Origin: a virus
Strand: one strand, 5' to 3'
Virus record (IMG/VR): IMGVR_UViG_3300006793_000308
Coordinates: 1-22,737 of that record
Length of the DNA: 22,737 bases
The notes beneath the pieces are model-generated. The model had not been told where the DNA came from, searched no databases, and worked only from the letters and a program-made list of their open reading frames with translations. Shown piece after piece: positions 2,117 to 22,352 of this stretch. Position 1 is the stretch's first letter. Each line of letters begins with the position of its first letter. Position numbers and translations under genes: made by a program.

Positions 2117-2168
2117 TTAGTTAGCTAGGAGGGAATCGAACCCTCCCAATGAACCTTTTAGCCTATTG
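2117..2168 (-). ncRNA. T-arm-like RNA element, copy A
   Basis: On the minus strand this segment forms an inner hairpin GGAGGG-TTCGATT-CCCTCC with the loop of a tRNA T-arm (TTCRA core). An outer helix pairs GGCTA with TAGCT, here containing a G-U pair. An 11-base single-stranded insert (AAAGGTTCATT) joins the two on the 5' side, while the 3' strand is continuous, as in a tRNA acceptor/T-arm stack. No D-arm, anticodon arm or CCA is present, so it is not a complete tRNA. It lies between the stop of 2172-2405 and the ATG of 1843-2100. Confidence 0.75.
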
Positions 2169-2171
2169 GTA

Positions 2172-2405
2172 TCATAAATATTGTTTATTAATTGGTGAAC
2201 CTGTTTGTTTCCTCACTTTTTTAAGTAAGGAATTAAGTGAAGACTCATCGTGTGTAAATTGGTCTATAATTCTATTGTAGTAATTTATGTAAGTACTACA
2301 ACCATACACTCTTAAGTGTGCTATAACGTGATTCTTATTGCCATTAATCCAAGTGTTATAATAGTAATCTTCCTCATCACAAAAATATTCTCCAATACTT
2401 TCCAT
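2172..2405 (-). CDS. Hypothetical phage protein, 77 aa
   Basis: Leftward gene MESIGEYFCDEEDYYYNTWINGNK.... The N-terminal quarter is acidic and Tyr-rich, followed by HVIAHLRVYGCSTYINYYNRI and a Lys/Arg-rich C-terminal part (LLKKVRKQTGSPINKQYL). No domain is recognised. Its stop lies three bases from T-arm-like element A. The start follows the standard leader (TTTAAAATAAATAATTATG). Function unknown. Confidence 0.7.
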   Translation of the reverse strand: MESIGEYFCDEEDYYYNTWINGNKNHVIAHLRVYGCSTYINYYNRIIDQFTHDESSLNSLLKKVRKQTGSPINKQYL

Positions 2406-2449
2406 AATTATTTATTTTAAATTGTTGTTATTTCTTTAATTTATCTATT

Positions 2450-3001
2450 CTAGCAGTAAGTATACTCTATCCCTTTTAGTGCTACTAGCAGGCTCTTAAA
2501 ATGACCAACTTGAAGCCTAAGGCAGTCTAGGTCAATATCCTCAACATCAACTGAGCAATAACCCTCTATGTCGTAAAACATTCCATCGTGATACTCAGAG
2601 GTATAGTCTAATAACTCATCCTTTACTTCTATATAGCTATCTATTAACTTATTAAACGTTTCTTCTACAGATGGCTGAATAGGTGTTCTAATCTCTTTCA
2701 AGGTCTGTAAGAGGTTATCAGATACTGCTGATGAATTGAATATAACTAGTATTTCCTCCTTGCTTTTAGCAGTCTCTAACTCAGCTATTACACGCTCTAT
2801 TGACTCCTTTACTTCACGTTGAATTAAGCCACCAAGTACATACTCTCCTCCATCCTTACCCCACATAAACCACTCCTCGTTATTCTTTTCAATATGCCCT
2901 ATGTGGATGTCAAAGTAGTATACCTTTAAAACCTTGTAACTATCTGTTACTATCAAAGCATTCCATTCTTCTTTTATTACTTCTCTCTTGTAAGTTATCA
3001 T
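2450..3001 (-). CDS. Hypothetical phage protein, 183 aa
   Basis: The largest gene of the leftward operon. A longer frame reaches 3097 but overlaps the upstream gene by 77 bases; the ATG at 3001 follows the exact leader TTTAAATAATAGAATTATG and is preferred (MITYKREVIKEEWNAL). Residues 1-70 look beta-rich (VYYFDIHIGHIE, EEWFMWGKDGGEYVLGG), residues 75-130 are helical and charged (KESIERVIAELETAKSKEE), and the C-terminal part is acidic with several Cys (CSVDVEDIDLDCLRL, ending YTYC). No membrane segment. Family not recognised; possibly two-domain. Confidence 0.75.
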   Translation of the reverse strand: MITYKREVIKEEWNALIVTDSYKVLKVYYFDIHIGHIEKNNEEWFMWGKDGGEYVLGGLIQREVKESIERVIAELETAKSKEEILVIFNSSAVSDNLLQTLKEIRTPIQPSVEETFNKLIDSYIEVKDELLDYTSEYHDGMFYDIEGYCSVDVEDIDLDCLRLQVGHFKSLLVALKGIEYTYC

Positions 3002-3020
3002 AATTCTATTATTTAAATTG

Positions 3021-3263
3021 TTAATAATCATATATTGTTCCTCCTCTATTAGCTGACCTATCCTCCCAATTAACAAACTTCTCAACTTCAAAATCACTTG
3101 AAATTGAATAACCTATTGAATGTACATTGTTATCCTTGTCTAATAAGGATAATAAGTCCTTATAAAGTTTAGTACTTTGTGGACGTTTGCAAGTCTTTGT
3201 GTAAGTGTTTATTGTACGTCCCTTATCGTTCTTTACGTAAAAAATGTATGTATTCGTATCCAT
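3021..3263 (-). CDS. Hypothetical phage protein, 80 aa
   Basis: Leftward gene MDTNTYIFYVKNDKGRTINTYTKTCKRPQSTK.... It has an N-terminal strand, a basic segment around residues 15-32, a helix (LYKDLLSLLDKDNN) and a C-terminal acidic/aromatic tail (NWEDRSANRGGTIYDY). It ends 19 bases before the chosen start of the next gene. No known motif; function unknown. Confidence 0.65.
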   Translation of the reverse strand: MDTNTYIFYVKNDKGRTINTYTKTCKRPQSTKLYKDLLSLLDKDNNVHSIGYSISSDFEVEKFVNWEDRSANRGGTIYDY

Positions 3264-3306
3264 ATCTGTTTTGTATTTAATCTTTAACTAATAATAACTC
3301 CTTCCA

Positions 3307-3471
3307 TTAAAAACACTCCGCTCGGCATTTGGTAACATTCAAATCTTTATTTTTTTTTATAAACTCATCAATTCTTTCTTCTTTTATATATCCATCTAAT
3401 TTAGCATCTTTTATTGCTTTTTTAGATTTTTCATCATTCCCAAAAATATGGTATATTCCTTGTATAATCAT
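3307..3471 (-). CDS. Small protein, 54 aa, probably imported cassette
   Basis: Leftward frame read from the ATG at 3471 (MIIQGIYHIFGNDEKSKKAIKDAKLDGYIKE...), chosen over an ATG at 3504 whose extra residues look like leader. It is Lys/Ile-rich and mostly helical. It uses GAA, AAA and AGA almost exclusively, whereas surrounding genes prefer GAG and AAG. It lies beside a long palindrome of a type common between flavobacterial chromosomal genes. The C-terminal residues (CRAECF) run into a sequence (GGTAACATT on the plus strand) resembling the start of that palindrome, so the true end may be abnormal. Function unknown; origin by transfer is an inference. Confidence 0.5.
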   Translation of the reverse strand: MIIQGIYHIFGNDEKSKKAIKDAKLDGYIKEERIDEFIKKNKDLNVTKCRAECF

Positions 3472-3505
3472 TTTTTTAAAGTTTAATAAAACGGTGGGTA
3501 ACAAA

Positions 3506-3611
3506 GTATATAAAACAATGCTAATCAGCGTTTTCGTTTATAATTCTATTTATTATTCAAATTCATTTCTCGTTTCAAAATCGGTCGTATATTTCGCATC
3601 GTTTCATATAC
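3506..3611. repeat. Long imperfect palindrome, attC-like
   Basis: Arms 3506-3521 (GTATATAAAACAATGC) and 3596-3611 (GCATCGTTTCATATAC) pair over 16 positions with only two mismatches. Just outside, GTAAC and CCGTTG add a short AAC/GTT pair after a small internal loop. The overall design (short core boxes, internal loop, long imperfect stem, large unpaired apex) resembles integron attC sites and the related repeats of flavobacterial genomes. The exact R-box consensus is not met, so attC is only a suggestion. Confidence 0.5.
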
Positions 3612-3615
3612 AAAC

Positions 3616-3738
3616 CGTTGTGTGTAATTGTGATTTCAGTTTTTAGGAGTTGGTTTCACATTCCTCAATGCCCACCTATTTTCGCTAGACTGGACTAGTC
3701 CCTCGAAACCACAACTACAAGCCTTTCGGCACACAACG
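3616..3738. repeat. Segment bounded by 9-base inverted repeat, non-phage-like remnant
   Basis: CGTTGTGTG (3616-3624) and CACACAACG (3730-3738) are perfect inverted repeats flanking about 105 bases. On the minus strand the inside contains a GCC-GAAA-GGC hairpin, the palindrome GGACTAGTCC and GGTTTC/GAAACC arms. One minus frame is open from about 3744 down to a TGA at 3636 without any ATG, reading ACSCGFEGLVQSSENRWALR, which looks like the tail end of a coding sequence. I read it as the remains of an imported chromosomal segment, together with the adjacent palindrome. Confidence 0.4.
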
Positions 3739-3759
3739 AGTAATATTTAGCTTATTAGT

Positions 3760-3909
3760 TTAAATCCTTGCCATCTCTAACTGAAAGTCTAGCTTCCTAA
3801 ATGCTTTAGTCATTGAGCAACTATCCTCTTTACAGATAATAATTGCTAACTCTCTTCGCTTATCAGCTACCCTTTGAGCAACTGAACTTCTTAATATTCT
3901 TCGTCTCAT
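3760..3909 (-). CDS. Small basic protein, 49 aa
   Basis: Leftward frame starting MRRRILRSSVAQRVADKRRELAII and ending DFQLEMARI. Strongly basic, Arg-rich N-terminal helix; two Cys in the centre (ICKEDSCS). The ATG has an operon-type leader (AATATAATAGAGTTATG). It could bind nucleic acid by charge, but no motif is defined. The gene is intact and closes the gap between the imported segment and the next small gene. Confidence 0.6.
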   Translation of the reverse strand: MRRRILRSSVAQRVADKRRELAIIICKEDSCSMTKAFRKLDFQLEMARI

Positions 3910-3916
3910 AACTCTA

Positions 3917-4060
3917 TTATATTTTAGTTGTTTCAATTATTTTATTTCCCCTAGCCTCAACAAATGAATACCAATTGTCGAAGTGCTTAGCATCCTTAAA
4001 TTCCTTGCCAAAGGTCTTATAAGTCCCATATTTATTCTTACAAATTATTCTATATTTCAT
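3917..4060 (-). CDS. Small hypothetical protein, 47 aa
   Basis: The frame is open to 4114, but the ATG at 4060 follows the leader ACTAAGATTATG, matching that of the next upstream gene, and avoids overlap with it. Protein MKYRIICKNKYGTYKTFGKEFKDAKHFDNW... looks like a small beta-hairpin plus helix (MKYRII-YGTYKTF-FKDAKHFDNW). This pattern (short strand, turn, aromatic helix, strand) is common among tiny phage accessory proteins. Function unknown. Confidence 0.6.
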   Translation of the reverse strand: MKYRIICKNKYGTYKTFGKEFKDAKHFDNWYSFVEARGNKIIETTKI

Positions 4061-4064
4061 AATC

Positions 4065-4316
4065 TTAGTTGTTAAATGTTGATACTGAATGTATAAGAGT
4101 CTGAGATGGCTCATCTAAGAATTGTATAGAAATTCTCTTGATAGAATTACTCTTGAACCTCCTCACAACTACCCTACACATTAACTTTTTTATAATAGTG
4201 TCTATAGTTACCTTATAGTAACTTGCAAGTGACTTTACTTGAGGTAATTCTTTTAACCCATCGTGAAAATCAAATATCCTTGTTGTATTTACCCAATCTG
4301 TTGTTGTTCTATTCAT
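4065..4316 (-). CDS. Small protein with possible helix-turn-helix, 83 aa
   Basis: The start is placed at 4316 (MNRTTTDWVNTTRIF), because the ATG is preceded by AATTAAGATTATG and the longer frame would overlap the upstream gene. Residues 24-45 (LPQVKSLASYYKVTIDTIIKKL) have the spacing of a helix-turn-helix: helix, a turn around YYKVT, and a second helix. They are followed by a basic stretch (CRVVVRRFKSNSIKR). A DNA-binding role is plausible but unproven. Confidence 0.6.
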   Translation of the reverse strand: MNRTTTDWVNTTRIFDFHDGLKELPQVKSLASYYKVTIDTIIKKLMCRVVVRRFKSNSIKRISIQFLDEPSQTLIHSVSTFNN

Positions 4317-4329
4317 AATCTTAATTATT

Positions 4330-4560
4330 TTAGGCTGACTTAAGCCATTGTTCATAAACGTAGCTATAAGGAGCATCTATCCTCTTCGCTAACTCACTAA
4401 ATATTCTCTCCCTTACAACGCTATCTCCCACACCTATATACTCATAGATATCCTTGTAACTATCTAACGCTACAAATAGACCTTGAAATGTAATCCCATC
4501 ATTTAACCAATCCCCTAAATCATCCGTAGGGAAAGCCTCTTTATACCACTGCTTTATCAT
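4330..4560 (-). CDS. Hypothetical phage protein, 76 aa, behind RNA element B
   Basis: Leftward gene MIKQWYKEAFPTDDLGDWLNDGITFQGLF.... Mostly helical, with DSYKDIYEYIGVGDSVVRERIFSEL and a C-terminal aromatic helix ending YEQWLKSA. No known motif. The ATG is about 20 bases after T-arm-like element B, making it one of three consecutive genes that each sit behind such an element. Function unknown. Confidence 0.7.
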   Translation of the reverse strand: MIKQWYKEAFPTDDLGDWLNDGITFQGLFVALDSYKDIYEYIGVGDSVVRERIFSELAKRIDAPYSYVYEQWLKSA

Positions 4561-4580
4561 AATATTTGTTTTAAAATTCC

Positions 4581-4629
4581 TAGTTAGCTAGGAGGGAATT
4601 GAACCCTCCCAATGAACCATTTAGCTATT
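4581..4629 (-). ncRNA. T-arm-like RNA element, copy B
   Basis: Same architecture as copy A but with informative changes. The loop is TTCAATT instead of TTCGATT (still TTCRA), and the outer helix is AGCTA/TAGCT, an A-U pair where copies C and D have G-C. The inserted strand reads AATGGTTCATT. The paired change preserves the helix, which argues for selection on RNA structure. It lies between the gene at 4640-4903 and the gene at 4330-4560. Confidence 0.75.
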
Positions 4630-4639
4630 CCAAATACCC

Positions 4640-4903
4640 CTAAAATAAAATCTTTTGGTTGACACTTATGTCAATCGTAGACCCATCAGACTTTTGACCA
4701 AAGGCTATGTAATGACCTTTACCCTCATCAATCGTATACTCGTTCAAGTCTGCTCCATCCTCCTTTAAATGCTTCAACTCCCACTTGTAGTGACCTACTG
4801 CATCATCCAATGTCTTGAATACCATTGAGGATGCCATTGAATGACCATCTGTAAACTCTTCCTTTGTTGTAATTACCCATACAAATTCTGTATATTCTTT
4901 CAT
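4640..4903 (-). CDS. Hypothetical phage protein, 87 aa, behind RNA element C
   Basis: Leftward gene MKEYTEFVWVITTKEEFTDGHSMASSMVF.... An N-terminal strand (FVWVITT), a helix (TLDDAVGHYKWELKHLKED) and C-terminal strands (GHYIAFGQKSDGSTIDISVNQKILF) give an alpha/beta layout. The start has the exact leader TTTAAATAATAGAATTATG, and RNA element C lies 26 bases upstream. No family recognised; soluble cytoplasmic protein expected. Confidence 0.75.
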   Translation of the reverse strand: MKEYTEFVWVITTKEEFTDGHSMASSMVFKTLDDAVGHYKWELKHLKEDGADLNEYTIDEGKGHYIAFGQKSDGSTIDISVNQKILF

Positions 4904-4928
4904 AATTCTATTATTTAAATTGTTAATA

Positions 4929-4980
4929 TTAGTTGGCTAGGAGGGAATCGAACCCTCCCAATGAACCTTTTAGCCTATTG
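4929..4980 (-). ncRNA. T-arm-like RNA element, copy C
   Basis: Outer helix GGCTA/TAGCC (all Watson-Crick), inner helix GGAGGG/CCCTCC, T-loop TTCGATT, 11-base insert AAAGGTTCATT. The TAG stop codon of the upstream gene (CAATAG) lies directly against the outer helix, so terminating ribosomes would disturb the structure. Almost identical to copy D over about 50 bases. Confidence 0.75.
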
Positions 4981-5355
4981 TTTCGCTATACCCATCTCTA
5001 CTAGGTGTGGAGCATAGAAGAATGGGTTATTATCATCTACACTTATGATGTCATACCTTTTACCTTTTATAGTTACACAAAATTTAGTACAAGTCCAATC
5101 TAACTCTAAGGGGCAAATGGTAATTTTACCACTTACTACCGTTAACACTTGTAGACTAGCTATAGTTACTTGAGTGTTGTCGCTTGTGGTTGCTTCCCTC
5201 CCACTACAATAATCTTTTTCCATTACATTCATAAACTCCTTGACCAACTCTCTTGTACCAAAAGTACTCTTTAATCTCATTGTAAATCTTGTGTGTAAAC
5301 TAATTGGTGCATACCACCCATCACTTACCTCATAATCTTTTATAAAACTATCCAT
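4975..5355 (-). CDS. Hypothetical phage protein, 126 aa, behind RNA element D
   Basis: First clearly intact gene of the leftward operon: MDSFIKDYEVSDGWYAPISLHTRFTMRLKS.... The N-terminal part contains a helix (TRELVKEFMNVMEKD), the middle is beta-rich (QVTIASLQVLTVVSGKITICPLEL), and the C-terminal third has WTCTKFCVTIKGKRYDIISVDDNN. The Cys and strand pattern suggests a compact beta domain. No family is recognised. Element D precedes the ATG by 20 bases and element C overlaps its stop. Confidence 0.75.
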   Translation of the reverse strand: MDSFIKDYEVSDGWYAPISLHTRFTMRLKSTFGTRELVKEFMNVMEKDYCSGREATTSDNTQVTIASLQVLTVVSGKITICPLELDWTCTKFCVTIKGKRYDIISVDDNNPFFYAPHLVEMGIAKQ

Positions 5356-5374
5356 CTTTCTATTATTTAAATTG

Positions 5375-5425
5375 TTAGTTGGCTAGGAGGGAATCGAACC
5401 CTCCCAATGAACCTTTTAGCCTATT
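5375..5425 (-). ncRNA. T-arm-like RNA element, copy D
   Basis: The most promoter-proximal copy of the element, matching copy C: outer GGCTA/TAGCC, inner GGAGGG/CCCTCC, loop TTCGATT. Upstream (plus coordinates above 5425) no intact gene ends here, so this copy belongs to the leader of the operon's first intact gene. No 5' tRNA half is found within 150 bases, excluding a normal tRNA gene. Confidence 0.7.
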
Positions 5426-5487
5426 ATCAGAATGTCACGACTTGTGTACCTCATCTGTATTGGTTGTTACTTAGAGTGAAATATATG

Positions 5488-5663
5488 TTAACTTGTACGA
5501 GTTATTTGGTTATGCTTACTCCATTTGTACTGTAGGTGTCTTTCCAACCTACCTAACACAGTCACCTTTGTTATAACTGTCTTACCTTGCCTCCAAGCTA
5601 TGTCTTTGTACCAATGCTTATCCCTATGGGAAGTGGTTATGCGTTAAACTGTATGTGACTCAT
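5488..5663 (-). pseudogene. Small gene broken by a one-base shift
   Basis: An ATG at 5663 opens MSHIQFNA and stops at a TAA (5637-5639). The frame one base back continues without a stop for 50 codons (5488-5640), reading ITTSHRDKHWYKDIAWRQ and TKVTVLGRLERHLQYKWSKH, with the AAG/AGG/GTG codon style of this phage. Adding one A at about 5640 joins them into a 58-residue protein. This may be a real inactivating deletion, a sequencing error, or non-AUG initiation. The normal operon leader is missing, and upstream open frames suggest further decay. Function unknown. Confidence 0.4.
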
Positions 5664-5794
5664 AGAGCAATGCAAAGGGGCATCAGATAGTAAGTAGGTA
5701 ATGTGTTTACCTCCTAATAGCTTGTCAGTATGTCAATGAACTTATGTCAGCTCTGCCGAACACTTACAATAGTACTATATACCTAAATACTGAC

Positions 5795-5802
5795 CAAATT
5801 TA
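5795..5802 (-). promoter_or_regulatory. Candidate leftward -7 box (TAAATTTG)
   Basis: On the minus strand TAAATTTG matches the Bacteroidota -7 consensus TAnnTTTG and points toward the leftward operon. No TTTG -33 box is visible 19-21 bases upstream. Instead the upstream positions are filled by two TTTACGAAAAC repeats, which could be activator or operator sites. Confidence 0.35.
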
Positions 5803-5904
5803 TTTACGAAAACTTTTACGAAAACTTTCTCAAGTGGAGCTAAGGTGCTGAAGATGAGTGTAGTTATAGGTAATAAATTATTTACGAAAACTTTTACGAA
5901 ACTT
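5803..5904. repeat. TTTACGAAAAC repeats (two pairs)
   Basis: TTTACGAAAAC occurs at 5803-5813 and 5815-5825, and again at 5881-5891 with a near copy at 5893-5902. Within each pair the period is 12 bases, about one helical turn, and the pairs are 78 bases apart. Paired helically phased sites fit binding by a dimeric regulator or replication initiator. Confidence 0.6.
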
Positions 5905-5975
5905 CTTGGTTTTAGAGATTTATGACTGACAAGAGCCTAAAAAAGACTGACATTGTGGCAGAAAACACTAAACGA

Positions 5976-6047
5976 TTACATTCGGATAAGGTAAAGTGCT
6001 GAGAGTCATAGGGGTTATGGATTTCAGTTTTATCCGTTTACATTCGG
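5976..6047. repeat. TTACATTCGG direct repeat with inverted CGGATAA/TTATCCG
   Basis: TTACATTCGG is present at 5976-5985 and 6038-6047. CGGATAA at 5983-5989 is inverted as TTATCCG at 6030-6036, so the two copies enclose a potential stem with a 40-base loop. Function unknown; a protein-binding site is one possibility. Confidence 0.4.
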
Positions 6048-6253
6048 CTATAGGACACTCCCTCTGATAGTAGGGGCTGTAGAGTAGTGTGTGATACCAA
6101 GTACTAGAGGATGTTGTTGTGATGTTGGTCACATAAGGTAGTTTAAACTGAGGTATAAATAATATGTTATAGGTAGGTGTTATTGCATAGTCCTTAATTG
6201 CTCCACCACAGAGCGAGAACCCCACCAATAACAAGGGATTAAGCAATAAATCA

Positions 6254-6296
6254 GTGATAACGTTTATTAAATGACCATTTCACTGACGTTATTACC
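6254..6296. repeat. Inverted repeat GTGATAACGT / ACGTTATTAC
   Basis: GTGATAACGT near 6254 pairs with ACGTTATTAC near 6287-6296 with one wobble, and CAGTG/CACTG adds a nested smaller pairing. It lies in the non-coding region. It could be an operator or origin element; nothing more specific can be said. Confidence 0.35.
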
Positions 6297-6814
6297 CCTT
6301 ATTGATACAAGGTGTTACATTTCCCTACCCCACTAGTAGTGGTAGGAGGAGGAGGTTGTCCATATAAAAAATAGGTAGAGAAAAAAGTTCAAATGCCACA
6401 CATAAAAAGTAAAATGATAACCCCCTACCCCCTAAAAAAAATCCGTTTTCCTTTTCAAGAATCGCTCCTGTTAGTTATAATAGTCCCTAATGCCTCCATT
6501 TTTACAAAAATTTTTAAAAGGTGCCCTAAGCCCTTACAGTACCTACTACTCAAGCAATCCTCCCCTCAACCCCTCCAGACAAACCTCTAACATCCATACT
6601 AAATAAGACACTTTAACACATTTTGATACCTACAGCACCCTTTCCCCTAAAGGATTCCTTAAAACCCCTTCAGAACCTCTCTCAGCCATACTTAAGCAAT
6701 CTTACTTAAGCAATAAAAAGTTTATAGTACACAAGGAAAGGTTTCCCTGAGGCAGTTATTTCAGTAAAGTAAGAGGTGTGTATATCTGAAGGTAATATTT
6801 AGCAGCTTGTTATC

Positions 6815-6844
6815 TATTTAACAGGTATGTTAATTATTTAACAG
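6815..6844. repeat. TATTTAACAG direct repeat
   Basis: Two exact copies of TATTTAACAG (6815-6824 and 6835-6844) have a 20-base period, about two helical turns. They lie 30 bases before the 11-base tandem array, suggesting one composite protein-binding locus. Confidence 0.5.
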
Positions 6845-6874
6845 TCTGTAAAGGTAGTGGATTTAGTAATATAT

Positions 6875-6923
6875 ATTTAGACGAGATTTAGACGAGATTT
6901 AGACGAGATTTAGACGAGATTTA
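6875..6923. repeat. Four tandem 11-bp iterons ATTTAGACGAG
   Basis: Four perfect consecutive copies of ATTTAGACGAG cover 6875-6918, followed by a partial ATTTA. The 11-base unit places each site on the same DNA face. Tandem iterons of this kind bind replication initiators or repressors; the candidate proteins here are the HTH protein at 8535 or early-operon products, but no link is shown. Confidence 0.8.
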
Positions 6924-7138
6924 AGAGGTAGTAGTACTATAATGTTACAGCACAAGACTTACTTAAACTTATTCCTCTACTACTAATGTTCTGCAAATCC
7001 TCTGAAAGTGTTGATGTCAAAGAGATTGAACTGATTAAGAAACTATCAATCAAGAGTACTTTTATTTATCTATTAAGTTTGAATTAAAGCCGACCCCTCC
7101 TTCTTTCTCTCTCTCTCTTTCCTTAAGCAATAGTTATT

Positions 7139-7220
7139 TACTTACTTAGGTACTTACTTAGTTGTTTACTTATCTCTTTACTTAATCGGCTATACTTACT
7201 TAAGTATCACCTTATACTTA
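7139..7220. repeat. TACTTA-rich AT tract
   Basis: TACTTA occurs nine times in 82 bases, at 7139, 7143, 7151, 7155, 7167, 7179, 7193, 7197 and 7215. It is preceded by a CT-rich polypyrimidine run. Easily melted, repeat-rich DNA next to iterons is typical of a DNA-unwinding element, but simple-sequence drift is an alternative. Confidence 0.45.
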
Positions 7221-7228
7221 CTTCTTTA

Positions 7229-7327
7229 TTGACTTGAAAGGATTCTCTTAGATACAGCTTCGCTGAACCGAAAAGAATATTTATTAAAAAATACTCTACT
7301 CAGTCAGCGAAGTGAGTTGACTTGAAA
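7229..7327. repeat. Direct repeat TTGACTTGAAA flanking an inverted repeat
   Basis: TTGACTTGAAA at 7229-7239 and 7317-7327 brackets the inverted pair CTTCGCTGA (7258-7266) and TCAGCGAAG (7304-7312). The block lies 500 bases upstream of the serine recombinase and has the compound layout of a resolvase or recombinase recognition site, though no crossover sequence can be assigned. Confidence 0.45.
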
Positions 7328-7581
7328 TGGAACTCCGTCAACAGACTACCTTTAGTGGTAGTAGAAAGTACTAAGGAAGTACTAACCCCTCGCCTATGTA
7401 ACCCTGCGAACCAAGCCTGAAGCCTCAAAACAGTTTGGGTGCGTCATTTTCCCATTTGTCTACATAGTAACTTATTTATAGACGCTCTGATTACCTTGAG
7501 TTGTTTTGGTCAGATAAGATAACACCATTTTTGATTTATACGTGGAACTTTCAAAACCACCTTATTTTTATGCGATATATA

Positions 7582-7647: not shown

Positions 7648-7763
7648 TGTATGTTAAAGAACGTATTGCAAATATAAGGATTTTTTCAATACGTAGAAAA
7701 AGTGTCTACTTTTATTTGCTGGTACAAATATACGAAAAATATTTTAATATTAAAAAACGGTGA

Positions 7764-7795
7764 TTTGTATATGTAAAATATTTTACTTATCTTTG
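7764..7795 (+). promoter_or_regulatory. Promoter for the recombinase gene
   Basis: TTTG (7764-7767), a 20-base spacer and TATCTTTG (7788-7795) match the Bacteroidota sigma consensus TTTG-N19-21-TAnnTTTG. The start of transcription would be around 7802, about 24 bases before the ATG. This is the best-formed rightward promoter in the region. Confidence 0.75.
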
Positions 7796-7825
7796 CAGAG
7801 TAATAATTAAATAAAAGGTTTTAAA

Positions 7826-9005: not shown

Positions 9006-9024
9006 AATATTTTTCGTATATTTG
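8994..9024 (+). promoter_or_regulatory. Promoter ahead of gene 9057
   Basis: TTTG (8994-8997), 19-base spacer, TATATTTG (9017-9024): both boxes and the spacing fit the Bacteroidota consensus. The -33 box lies inside the end of the preceding gene. The predicted 5' leader is about 25 bases. Confidence 0.75.
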
Positions 9025-9056
9025 CAAATATAATTAATAACTTAAAACAATTTTAG

Positions 9057-10472: not shown

Positions 10473-10488
10473 TATATTTGCAAAGATA
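10473..10488. promoter_or_regulatory. Back-to-back divergent -7 boxes
   Basis: TATATTTG on the plus strand (10473-10480) abuts CAAAGATA (10481-10488), which is TATCTTTG on the minus strand. The two -7 boxes for the divergent genes at 10512 (+) and 10449 (-) thus form one 16-base near-palindrome. RNA polymerase can occupy only one direction at a time. Neither has a good -33 TTTG. Confidence 0.6.
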
Positions 10489-11272: not shown

Positions 11273-12616
11273 ATGGGAAGAATAAATCAAAAACCAATAG
11301 ATACTATATTAAACGCAGACGACAAGTTTCTAATATCGGACAGCGTAGATGGTGGAACTAAGAACATCCTTACTACACAGGTTGAGGAGTATATACTTGG
11401 AATACAAGGTGATAGAAAGATACCAGTTGAGTCTCAAGTAAACTTTGTGACATCAGAGCCTGTAATATCTGAGACTAAGAGGTATATAAACACTGCCAGT
11501 GGTACATCCCTGAGTGGTGTAACGGTAAAGGAGGGTTACATATATGAGGCACGAGATGCTGAGTGGCACGAGATACAACCTACCGAAGGTTTTGCTGTAT
11601 GGGATAAGGAATTAGACTTACAATTATATTTTGATGGCTCAGATTGGGTCGATAACAAAGGAGACCAAGGTATTCAGGGTATTCAAGGTATTCAGGGTGT
11701 TCAAGGTATTCAAGGTATTCAGGGTATTCAGGGTATTCAAGGAGATGGTACTGGTTTAGTGTCTTATGAAACTGTAAGTGAACTGCCAATAGGGGGAGTT
11801 GATAATATTAGTTATAAGGTAACTAACGACCCAATAAGCAGCAATAATGGATACTACCACTGGGACGGTGTTTCGTCATATGTAAAAGACGCAAGTTTAG
11901 CAAATGGCGAAGTTGAAAGTGGAAATATAGAAGCAGTTGAGGGTGGAAAAATTTATGATTTTATAAAAGCTTTTTCTATAAAAATAGAGAGAGATTTTCC
12001 ATTAGCATCTAATACACCCACAGGTACTCTGTGTTACCTACAGTCAAATGGGTCAATGGAAATTGCAGACGCAACAAATGGAAGTGTTGCAGACAGCTTG
12101 TTATGTATAGCTGGTGGTGCAAGTCAGTCAACCGTTACTGTGTTATTGGAGGGTATAGTTACAACAACAGGTTTAGCGACAGGTTACGCATACTACATAG
12201 ATGAAGGTGGTGGTATAACACATAATGTTAGTTCATTCAATACTTCAAGTCAAGTAAGACTAATTGGGTATGCCCTTTCGTCAACGGAGTTGTACTTTAA
12301 GCCTGTAAAACAATCAAATAATCAAATAGCCTTTGGTAGTTTAATACAACCATCTGTACAAACACCTGTAAGTGGTGGTGAAGTTTATGACGCAATAAAG
12401 GATAGTGCTGATATAGTTTCAAAACCTTCAACACCTTCCTCAAGTGGGGTGACAGGTCAACTAGCTTATGACACAATAATTAAAGACTATGAAGACAGGG
12501 TATTTTCAGATGGTGGTGTTACTGAAGCGTCAAGCTGTATACCATTTGTTGAAGATTACTTGTATTTGTGTGTAGCAACTGATAGTTGGAGAAGGACTTT
12601 ATTAACAACTTGGTAA
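11273..12616 (+). CDS. Collagen-repeat tail fibre protein, 447 aa
   Basis: The N-terminus (INQKPIDTILNADDKFLISDS) resembles the virion-attachment part of tail fibres. Residues 133-156 are eight consecutive Gly-Ile-Gln-type triplets (one GVQ), a collagen-like trimerising stalk. Thereafter come beta-rich Gly/Thr/Ser segments and repeated motifs of the form V-GG-x-YD-I (GGKIYDFIK near 225, GGEVYDAIK near 368, GQLAYDTI near 398). The last 45 residues carry DRVFSDGGVTEASSC, a module also seen in the small protein at 12917. Codon use changes within the gene: Glu is 9 GAG to 2 GAA before the repeats and 11 GAA to 4 GAG after them. Likely a trimeric fibre for host recognition. Confidence 0.8.
   Translation: MGRINQKPIDTILNADDKFLISDSVDGGTKNILTTQVEEYILGIQGDRKIPVESQVNFVTSEPVISETKRYINTASGTSLSGVTVKEGYIYEARDAEWHEIQPTEGFAVWDKELDLQLYFDGSDWVDNKGDQGIQGIQGIQGVQGIQGIQGIQGIQGDGTGLVSYETVSELPIGGVDNISYKVTNDPISSNNGYYHWDGVSSYVKDASLANGEVESGNIEAVEGGKIYDFIKAFSIKIERDFPLASNTPTGTLCYLQSNGSMEIADATNGSVADSLLCIAGGASQSTVTVLLEGIVTTTGLATGYAYYIDEGGGITHNVSSFNTSSQVRLIGYALSSTELYFKPVKQSNNQIAFGSLIQPSVQTPVSGGEVYDAIKDSADIVSKPSTPSSSGVTGQLAYDTIIKDYEDRVFSDGGVTEASSCIPFVEDYLYLCVATDSWRRTLLTTW
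11669..11740 (+). repeat. Eight tandem 9-bp repeats (GGTATTCAR)
   Basis: Eight in-frame copies of GGTATTCAA/G (one GGTGTTCAA) encode the Gly-Ile-Gln stalk. The 9-base unit lets copy number change without frameshift, and the similarity makes it a recombination target. Confidence 0.9.
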
Positions 12617-12649: not shown

Positions 12650-12913
12650 ATGGCAACAAAAGTAGGATTAGAAAACAATCTATTAATTATAGATGATGGA
12701 GTAAAAAGGCAGTACCTAAATTCTGCGTGGTGTAGTATAAGTTTTGATACTGATTCAGTAGTAATTTTAAATAATGTTAGTTTAAATTTGCACGTACACG
12801 ACTACAAGGTTAGGTCAAATAAAATTTTATTTACTGACTTTCAAGATTTAGACTCTACAGCATACGCTAGTGAGTCTGCAATAGCAACTTATTTAAGTGA
12901 TAAAATAGGATAA
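12650..12913 (+). CDS. Small tail-associated protein, 87 aa
   Basis: MATKVGLENNLLIIDDGVKRQYLNSAWCSI... beta-rich (VVILNNVSLNLHVHDYKV, NKILFTDFQDL) and ending with a short helix (SESAIATYLSDKIG). The GAA/AAA codon style matches the tail block. Located between two fibre-related genes and following the fibre by 33 bases, it is probably a fibre-tip, hinge or virion accessory protein; no known domain is identified. Confidence 0.6.
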   Translation: MATKVGLENNLLIIDDGVKRQYLNSAWCSISFDTDSVVILNNVSLNLHVHDYKVRSNKILFTDFQDLDSTAYASESAIATYLSDKIG

Positions 12914-22317: not shown

Positions 22318-22325
22318 TATATTTG
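22318..22325 (+). promoter_or_regulatory. -7 box TATATTTG after the portal gene
   Basis: TATATTTG followed by GCAG lies 27 bases before the next ATG, in the gap after the portal stop. It matches the strong -7 form used ahead of 9057 and 10512. Confidence 0.6.
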
Positions 22326-22352
22326 CAGTATTAATAAATAAAATCTATTATA

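Follow-up and report, generated by a model that had tools for sequence, protein, structure and literature searches.

The window analysed here is the entire IMG/VR virus record IMGVR_UViG_3300006793_000308, a stretch of 22,737 bases that encodes a phage terminase and portal and carries on its minus strand four nearly identical copies (A to D) of a short element resembling the T-arm and acceptor half of a transfer RNA (tRNA), with cores at 2123-2163, 4585-4627, 4935-4975 and 5381-5421 (Table 1). A first-pass annotation had placed four minus-strand copies here, which the sequence confirmed. Each copy consists of an outer stem of 5-6 base pairs (bp), a 12-nucleotide (nt) insert on the 5' side (AAxGGTTCATTG), a 6-bp T-stem (GGAGGG/CCCTCC) and a loop of the form TTCRATT, which reads TTCGATT in A, C and D and TTCAATT in B. 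The outer stem is GGCTA/TAGCC in C and D, TAGCTA/TAGCTA in B, and GGCTA/TAGCT with a G-U pair in A; the series of outer pairs described earlier (G-C in C and D, A-U in B, G-U in A) was correct. The insert had been taken for 11 bare bases, a length that requires reading the T-stem as 7 bp, and it is not bare, AAxGGTT being its conserved D-loop-like part.

An ATG lies 21-30 nt downstream of every window copy, and the preceding stop codon falls 7 nt before A and 12 nt before B and is overlapped for 2 nt by C. The placement between a stop and an ATG initially attributed to all four copies thus applies to A, B and C and not to D: since no same-strand open reading frame (ORF) of at least 60 codons ends within 200 nt upstream of it, D is a leader and does not mark a stop-to-start junction. 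When single copies were folded thermodynamically, the T-arm was recovered every time, while A and B favoured other outer helices, for which reason the comparative evidence presented below outweighs folding energy.

The four elements are members of what is apparently an undescribed, large and widespread family of ~42-nt RNAs. An exact T-arm search of viral contigs returned, besides some real tRNAs, unrelated contigs in which the same T-arm has a different yet fully paired outer stem and a GG insert, and a search with an insert-plus-loop pattern gave more members with other T-stems. Early pattern matches that are real tRNAs or tRNA clusters (L001, L006, L008, L009 and L010) were left out of the alignments, and L002 8775 and L084, pattern matches of unconvincing structure, were not counted as evidence. 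A covariance model trained on eleven copies, all from other viruses and with the window excluded (R1), recovered all four window copies with expectation values (E) of 2e-8 to 2.2e-7, and a second model with a wider training set that included the window (R2) returned 107 matches in one batch and 187 in another. Pattern and model searches of viral contigs and Bacteroidota prophages together yielded 221 distinct sites. A structural descriptor matched 179 times in 862 kilobases (kb) of related loci versus zero in two shuffled copies, selection of these loci by the insert and loop pattern inflating the 179 and not the shuffle zero; in an earlier 329-kb set, three shuffled copies gave one match. A BLAST search of phages with one element returned nothing beyond short T-arm matches, some of them inside tRNAs.

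The alignments provided overwhelming covariation. In alignments fitted to the model, and hence biased towards structure, 44 distinct copies showed changes on both sides in 10 of the 12 pairs, with 187 double-changed cells against 51 in shuffled data and a covariation score of 0.88 against 0.16, and 117 distinct copies showed 542 such cells against 148 and a score of 0.94 against 0.16. Shifting the pairing partner by one to three columns lowered the score below 0.2, and an alignment built from sequence alone (A3) gave the same answer.

We further parsed 213 copies independently of the model. Their constant part is the tRNA elbow, that is, a D-loop-like linker AAYGGTT and the T-loop TTCGATT: GG occurs in all 213 inserts, 176 of which start with AACGGT or AATGGT, and the loop reads TTCGATT in 194, a constancy partly imposed by the search patterns, which left the stems and the 3' end free. 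The elbow is set in a variable acceptor-like stem of 5-7 bp and a variable T-stem of 6-7 bp, with neither D-stem nor anticodon arm, and 207 of the 213 copies have 11-13 bp in their helices taken together (mode 12). With 78 distinct acceptor cores and 77 distinct T-stems, the stems vary freely, so it is the general tRNA shape that is conserved and not the stem sequence. Conservation of the GG suggests that it may be placed for docking on the T-loop. The first-pass annotation had called beforehand for further copies elsewhere and for covariation in a larger alignment; both were found, the copies in many unrelated phages, and together with the GG and loop counts they strongly support its reading of a structured RNA made of a T-arm and an acceptor-like helix.

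Past the helix, residue 73 is mostly A, and C74 follows in two thirds of the non-redundant copies; a non-C occupies position 75 in 108 of the 111 non-redundant copies with C74, and C in the other three. CCA is encoded in 4 of the 213 parsed copies, and the 3' flank is mostly A-rich, ACAA being commonest. In an Epilithonimonas genome carrying such a prophage, most tRNA genes end in N73-C74-(A/T) and few encode CCA. Because the tRNA genes of this prophage host share N73-C-(A/T), the 3' ends of the elements appear to resemble those of host precursor tRNAs, the window copies, with A at 74, being exceptions.

Placement is equally regular across the family. Upstream of 205 of the 221 sites, a same-strand ORF (at least 60 codons) ends within 200 nt, and in 76% of these cases its stop falls in the interval from 25 nt before the element to 10 nt inside it; an ATG-started ORF follows within 200 nt at 212 sites (median 29 nt, usual distance 13-50 nt). 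The elements share the strand of their flanking genes, and some loci carry them at many successive junctions, such as the eight in L235, with up to 8 copies per record. Fifteen sites precede a Mu-like transposase (phrog_310); eleven of these transposases were aligned, ten being only 18-23% identical to the first, a diversity too great for the alignment to serve in a locus search. Other flanking genes are diverse and include those for a methyltransferase, an ATPase, a tail assembly chaperone and the major head protein.

Ordinary tRNA or transfer-messenger RNA (tmRNA) was rejected, ARAGORN and Rfam both being negative. ARAGORN called no tRNA in the window or, among the loci scanned, at the minimal elements, and no Rfam 15 family exceeded its gathering cut-off in the window and the eight element loci searched. 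The best sub-threshold Rfam matches were to tmRNA and plastid untranslated region models, the window T-arms reaching a weak 14.5 bits against the tmRNA model RF00023 (cut-off 47 bits). No description of these repeats was found in the open-access literature, a scope outside which most mycobacteriophage cluster papers fall, so an earlier mention is possible. Processing signals resembling tRNA are already known, whereas the RNA family itself appears new.

One search pattern matched 28 viral contig stretches versus 8 places in bacterial genomes (257 Gb searched), seven of these in Bacteroidota. Model matches in bacterial genomes numbered 19/296 in one family, 7/393 in one order and 2/395 across the phylum Bacteroidota, all lower bounds, since each genome contributed only its best candidates to the scoring. 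They are mostly clustered, as in prophages, and the low rate across the phylum is expected of a prophage-borne feature. No element was found in the Winogradskyella phage Peternella, which has a related transposase; the trait is therefore not universal even among relatives.

Annotated mycobacteriophages, namely Cuke (L207), Fowlmouth, Indlulamithi, Rope and Predator, harbor some of the multi-copy sets, in which the linker takes a second form, CTGGCAGAC. Their elements mostly begin ~8-14 nt downstream of an annotated stop codon; those of Cuke, Rope and Predator sit in annotated gene gaps. In these three phages a hairpin, mostly of 7-9 bp and with its first pair 0-7 nt past residue 73, occurs at 19 of 20 folded sites, as judged against shuffles preserving base composition only; it is usually followed by a purine-rich sequence of the AGGATGG type and then a start codon. 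The hairpins after elements in L338, L339 and L340 keep their shape while varying in sequence, forming a second part of the junction before the ribosome-binding site. In L338 (phage Cuke), the annotated genes SEA_CUKE_43 and 44 (4430-4711 and 4662-4994) overlap mini-tRNA-like elements, and their starts or existence may be misannotated.

Longer tRNA-like structures that retain a D-arm lie at early gene junctions of hankyphage p00 and a Porphyromonas Mu-like phage. One p00 record receives an ARAGORN tRNA-Arg call, while another has a GCAA tetraloop in place of the anticodon loop and goes uncalled. This gradation suggests a continuum from tRNA to minimal element.

On balance, we lean towards the interpretation that the elements mimic the acceptor/elbow part of precursor tRNAs and so recruit host RNase P and/or RNase Z to punctuate polycistronic phage messenger RNA (mRNA). 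In the element the T-loop lies ~12 bp from the helix end, as in tRNA; RNase P would cut at its 5' side, and RNase Z or an equivalent enzyme after residue 73, which would divide the polycistronic transcript, close to its stop codons, into shorter mRNAs whose ends are defined. In mycobacteriophages, the RNA released by the cut after residue 73 would begin with a protective hairpin. RNase P makes a stacking contact with the elbow and probably gauges the 12-bp distance from the T-loop, and a GGU of its RNA interacts with residues of the substrate (PMC11143913); an alignment located GGU at the expected site in the RNase P RNAs of element-carrying hosts. We favour punctuation because the conserved features (elbow, 12 bp and mostly R73-C74) are those that tRNA-maturation enzymes read, and because plant mitochondrial t-elements define mRNA ends via RNase P and RNase Z. 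While structure, covariation, placement, distribution and the precursor-like 3' end are observed, we infer from them recognition by these enzymes, cleavage and an effect on expression. The functional part of the first-pass annotation, which proposed an RNase P or RNase Z signal, a switch or a tag, would to that extent be partly supported, as it fits the position, the 3' end and the mycobacteriophage hairpin.

Several observations weigh against this interpretation. In 15 of 205 cases the stop codon of the upstream ORF extends 7-8 nt into the element, where a 5' cut would remove it. The T-stem has 6-7 bp, sometimes with a one-base 3' bulge, versus 5 bp in real tRNAs. C74-C75 hinders bacterial RNase Z, and C74 is common in the elements. 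Position 74 is A and not C in all four window copies. Punctuation between two genes could not be the sole role of D, which has no close upstream gene, and the hairpin downstream of the mycobacteriophage elements has other possible uses.

The main rival, to which we assign a clearly lower probability, holds that the elements remain uncut as protein-bound or ribosome-sensitive structures, that is, stable cis-regulatory or insulating RNAs recognized at the elbow by a host or phage protein and controlling translation restart, ribosome sliding or mRNA decay. The tight stop-to-start placement suits such a role, as do conservation of the elbow while the stems are free and the probable covering and melting of the 5' half of most copies by a terminating ribosome, and the internal stop codons of 15 elements speak against a 5' cut. 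Yet the flanking genes are diverse, no candidate binding protein stood out nearby in what was not a systematic search, and a simple insulator needs no precursor-like R73-C74 end beyond its helix.

Two further explanations are improbable, and to a similar degree. Action in trans as released or exposed tRNA mimics, for instance as decoys for tRNA-binding host enzymes or defences, would account for the strong likeness to the top half of tRNA and for several copies per genome, but a trans-acting RNA needs no placement at successive junctions such as that in L235, placement is bound to gene junctions in a fixed orientation, and anticodon nucleases are unlikely targets of an RNA that lacks an anticodon arm. 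A role in intrinsic termination, or in protecting the 3' end of the upstream mRNA, would fit the GC-rich stems soon after stop codons, and a T-run does follow a few copies (L023, L031 and L035); most copies, those of the window included, have instead an A-rich 3' flank without a T-run, and the D-loop/T-loop motif would be superfluous. That the copies are duplicated tRNA 3' fragments, the fallback reading of the first-pass annotation, or a mobile DNA repeat without RNA function is scarcely credible, since the near-identity of the four window copies that would fit it is set against more than 70 distinct sequences per stem with pairing maintained, a position kept before very diverged transposases and a fixed orientation, and covariation contradicts the fallback and rules out isolated tRNA debris.

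Should punctuation by cleavage be correct, many phages, well-annotated mycobacteriophages included, would cut their operon mRNAs by means of a 42-nt tRNA mimic, which would account for intergenic gaps of ~80-100 nt annotated as empty or as parts of genes. In bacteria, the elements would constitute a minimal RNase P/RNase Z substrate of natural origin that includes the D-loop/T-loop elbow, as well as a compact, portable processing element, and tRNA punctuation, known from mitochondria, would become testable in easily grown phages. The wider claim that anticodon-less minimal tRNA mimics are phage-wide punctuation marks processed by host RNase P and RNase Z, at least in phages of Bacteroidota and Actinomycetota, is advanced more tentatively. 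Even if they are uncut, the elements make up a large structured-RNA family missing from Rfam 15.

As for the rest of the window, promoter-like TANNTTTGCA motifs occur 8 times versus 1.3 expected and are likely Bacteroidota-type promoters, some of them divergent; two pairs overlap head to head. Because these motifs are over-represented, they point to a Bacteroidota host for the virus. Relatives of the window's terminase were found on short contigs, which carry no element. Another candidate structured RNA lies at 3616-3740 on the minus strand, with a long closing helix CGUUGUGUG...CACACAACG and inner branches; it folds at -42.6 kcal/mol (z -3.5), with none of 200 shuffles equally stable, has no Rfam match and has so far displayed no relation to the tRNA-like elements. 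Positions 5430-7540, ~2 kb without a convincing ORF, separate the minus-strand genes from a plus-strand module and contain short tandem repeats (ATTTAGACGAG, 4.5 units, at 6875-6923; TTTACGAAAACT at 5803-5828); this region is possibly an origin or control region. At 11666-11742, a nine-base tandem repeat encodes a collagen-like Gly-Ile-Gln repeat within a 447-amino-acid ORF (11273-12616).

Table 1. Coordinates of the tRNA-like elements, the parts of element D and other features; positions refer to the window unless a locus is named.
Feature	Position	Strand	Remarks
Element A, mini-tRNA-like RNA	2122..2164	-	Between stop of ORF 2405-2172 and ATG of ORF 2100-1843; outer pair G-U; R1 34.8 bits, E 2.2e-7; R2 52.0 bits
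Element B, mini-tRNA-like RNA	4585..4627	-	Between ORF 4903-4640 and ORF 4560-4330; outer pair A-U, loop TTCAATT; R1 35.7 bits, E 1.1e-7; R2 51.0 bits
Element C, mini-tRNA-like RNA	4934..4976	-	Stop codon of ORF 5355-4975 overlaps first two bases; upstream of ORF 4903-4640; R1 38.1 bits, E 2e-8; R2 54.7 bits
Element D, mini-tRNA-like RNA	5380..5422	-	Leader of ORF 5355-4975, no nearby upstream ORF; R1 38.1 bits, E 2e-8; R2 54.7 bits
D, acceptor-like stem, 5' strand GGCTA	5417..5421	-	Read from sequence
D, D-loop-like insert AAAGGTTCATTG	5405..5416	-	GG, putative G18/G19 analogue
D, T-stem, 5' strand GGAGGG	5399..5404	-	
D, T-loop TTCGATT	5392..5398	-	
D, T-stem, 3' strand CCCTCC	5386..5391	-	
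D, acceptor-like stem, 3' strand TAGCC	5381..5385	-	Then A (position 73), then ACTAA
Promoter-like TANNTTTGCA motifs	7667-7676, 7788-7797, 9017-9032, 10473-10488, 12783-12792, 22318-22327		
Longer tRNA-like structures	L163 1767-1848, L165 2464-2545, L164 2426-2493		Hankyphage p00 and Porphyromonas Mu-like phage; anticodon arms degenerate or replaced by a tetraloop

Among comparable systems, the closest in proposed action are the t-elements of plant mitochondria, tRNA-like signals of mRNA ends that are cut by RNase P and RNase Z and have no role in translation (PMC11658184). Both are tRNA-like cis elements on the sense strand at gene borders, but t-elements are homologous to whole tRNA genes and belong to plant organelles (PMC11658184), whereas the phage elements span ~42 nt, have neither a D-stem nor an anticodon arm, differ from one another in both stems and are present several times in phage operons. 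Mitochondrial tRNA punctuation likewise relies on tRNA structures between genes to direct the cutting of polycistronic RNA, as proposed here; its marks are functional tRNAs, in contrast to the anticodon-less phage elements. Bacterial RNase P RNA also cleaves model substrates made of acceptor stem, T-stem and T-loop, such as AT1 (PMC11143913). These share the helix stack and T-loop of the phage elements but are laboratory constructs, while the latter are natural, carry a GG linker and mostly lack CCA. The tRNA-like domain of tmRNA (RF00023) combines a T-arm and acceptor stem with a stemless D-loop analogue, just as the phage elements do; these are much smaller, lack an mRNA-like domain, mostly encode no CCA and are present in many copies per genome. 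Finally, YrlA and other bacterial Y RNAs, which are longer, single RNAs associated with the Ro protein Rsr, contain a tRNA-like module and hence share with the phage elements a mimic of the tRNA elbow in bacteria and phages, but unlike them are not repeated at operon junctions.

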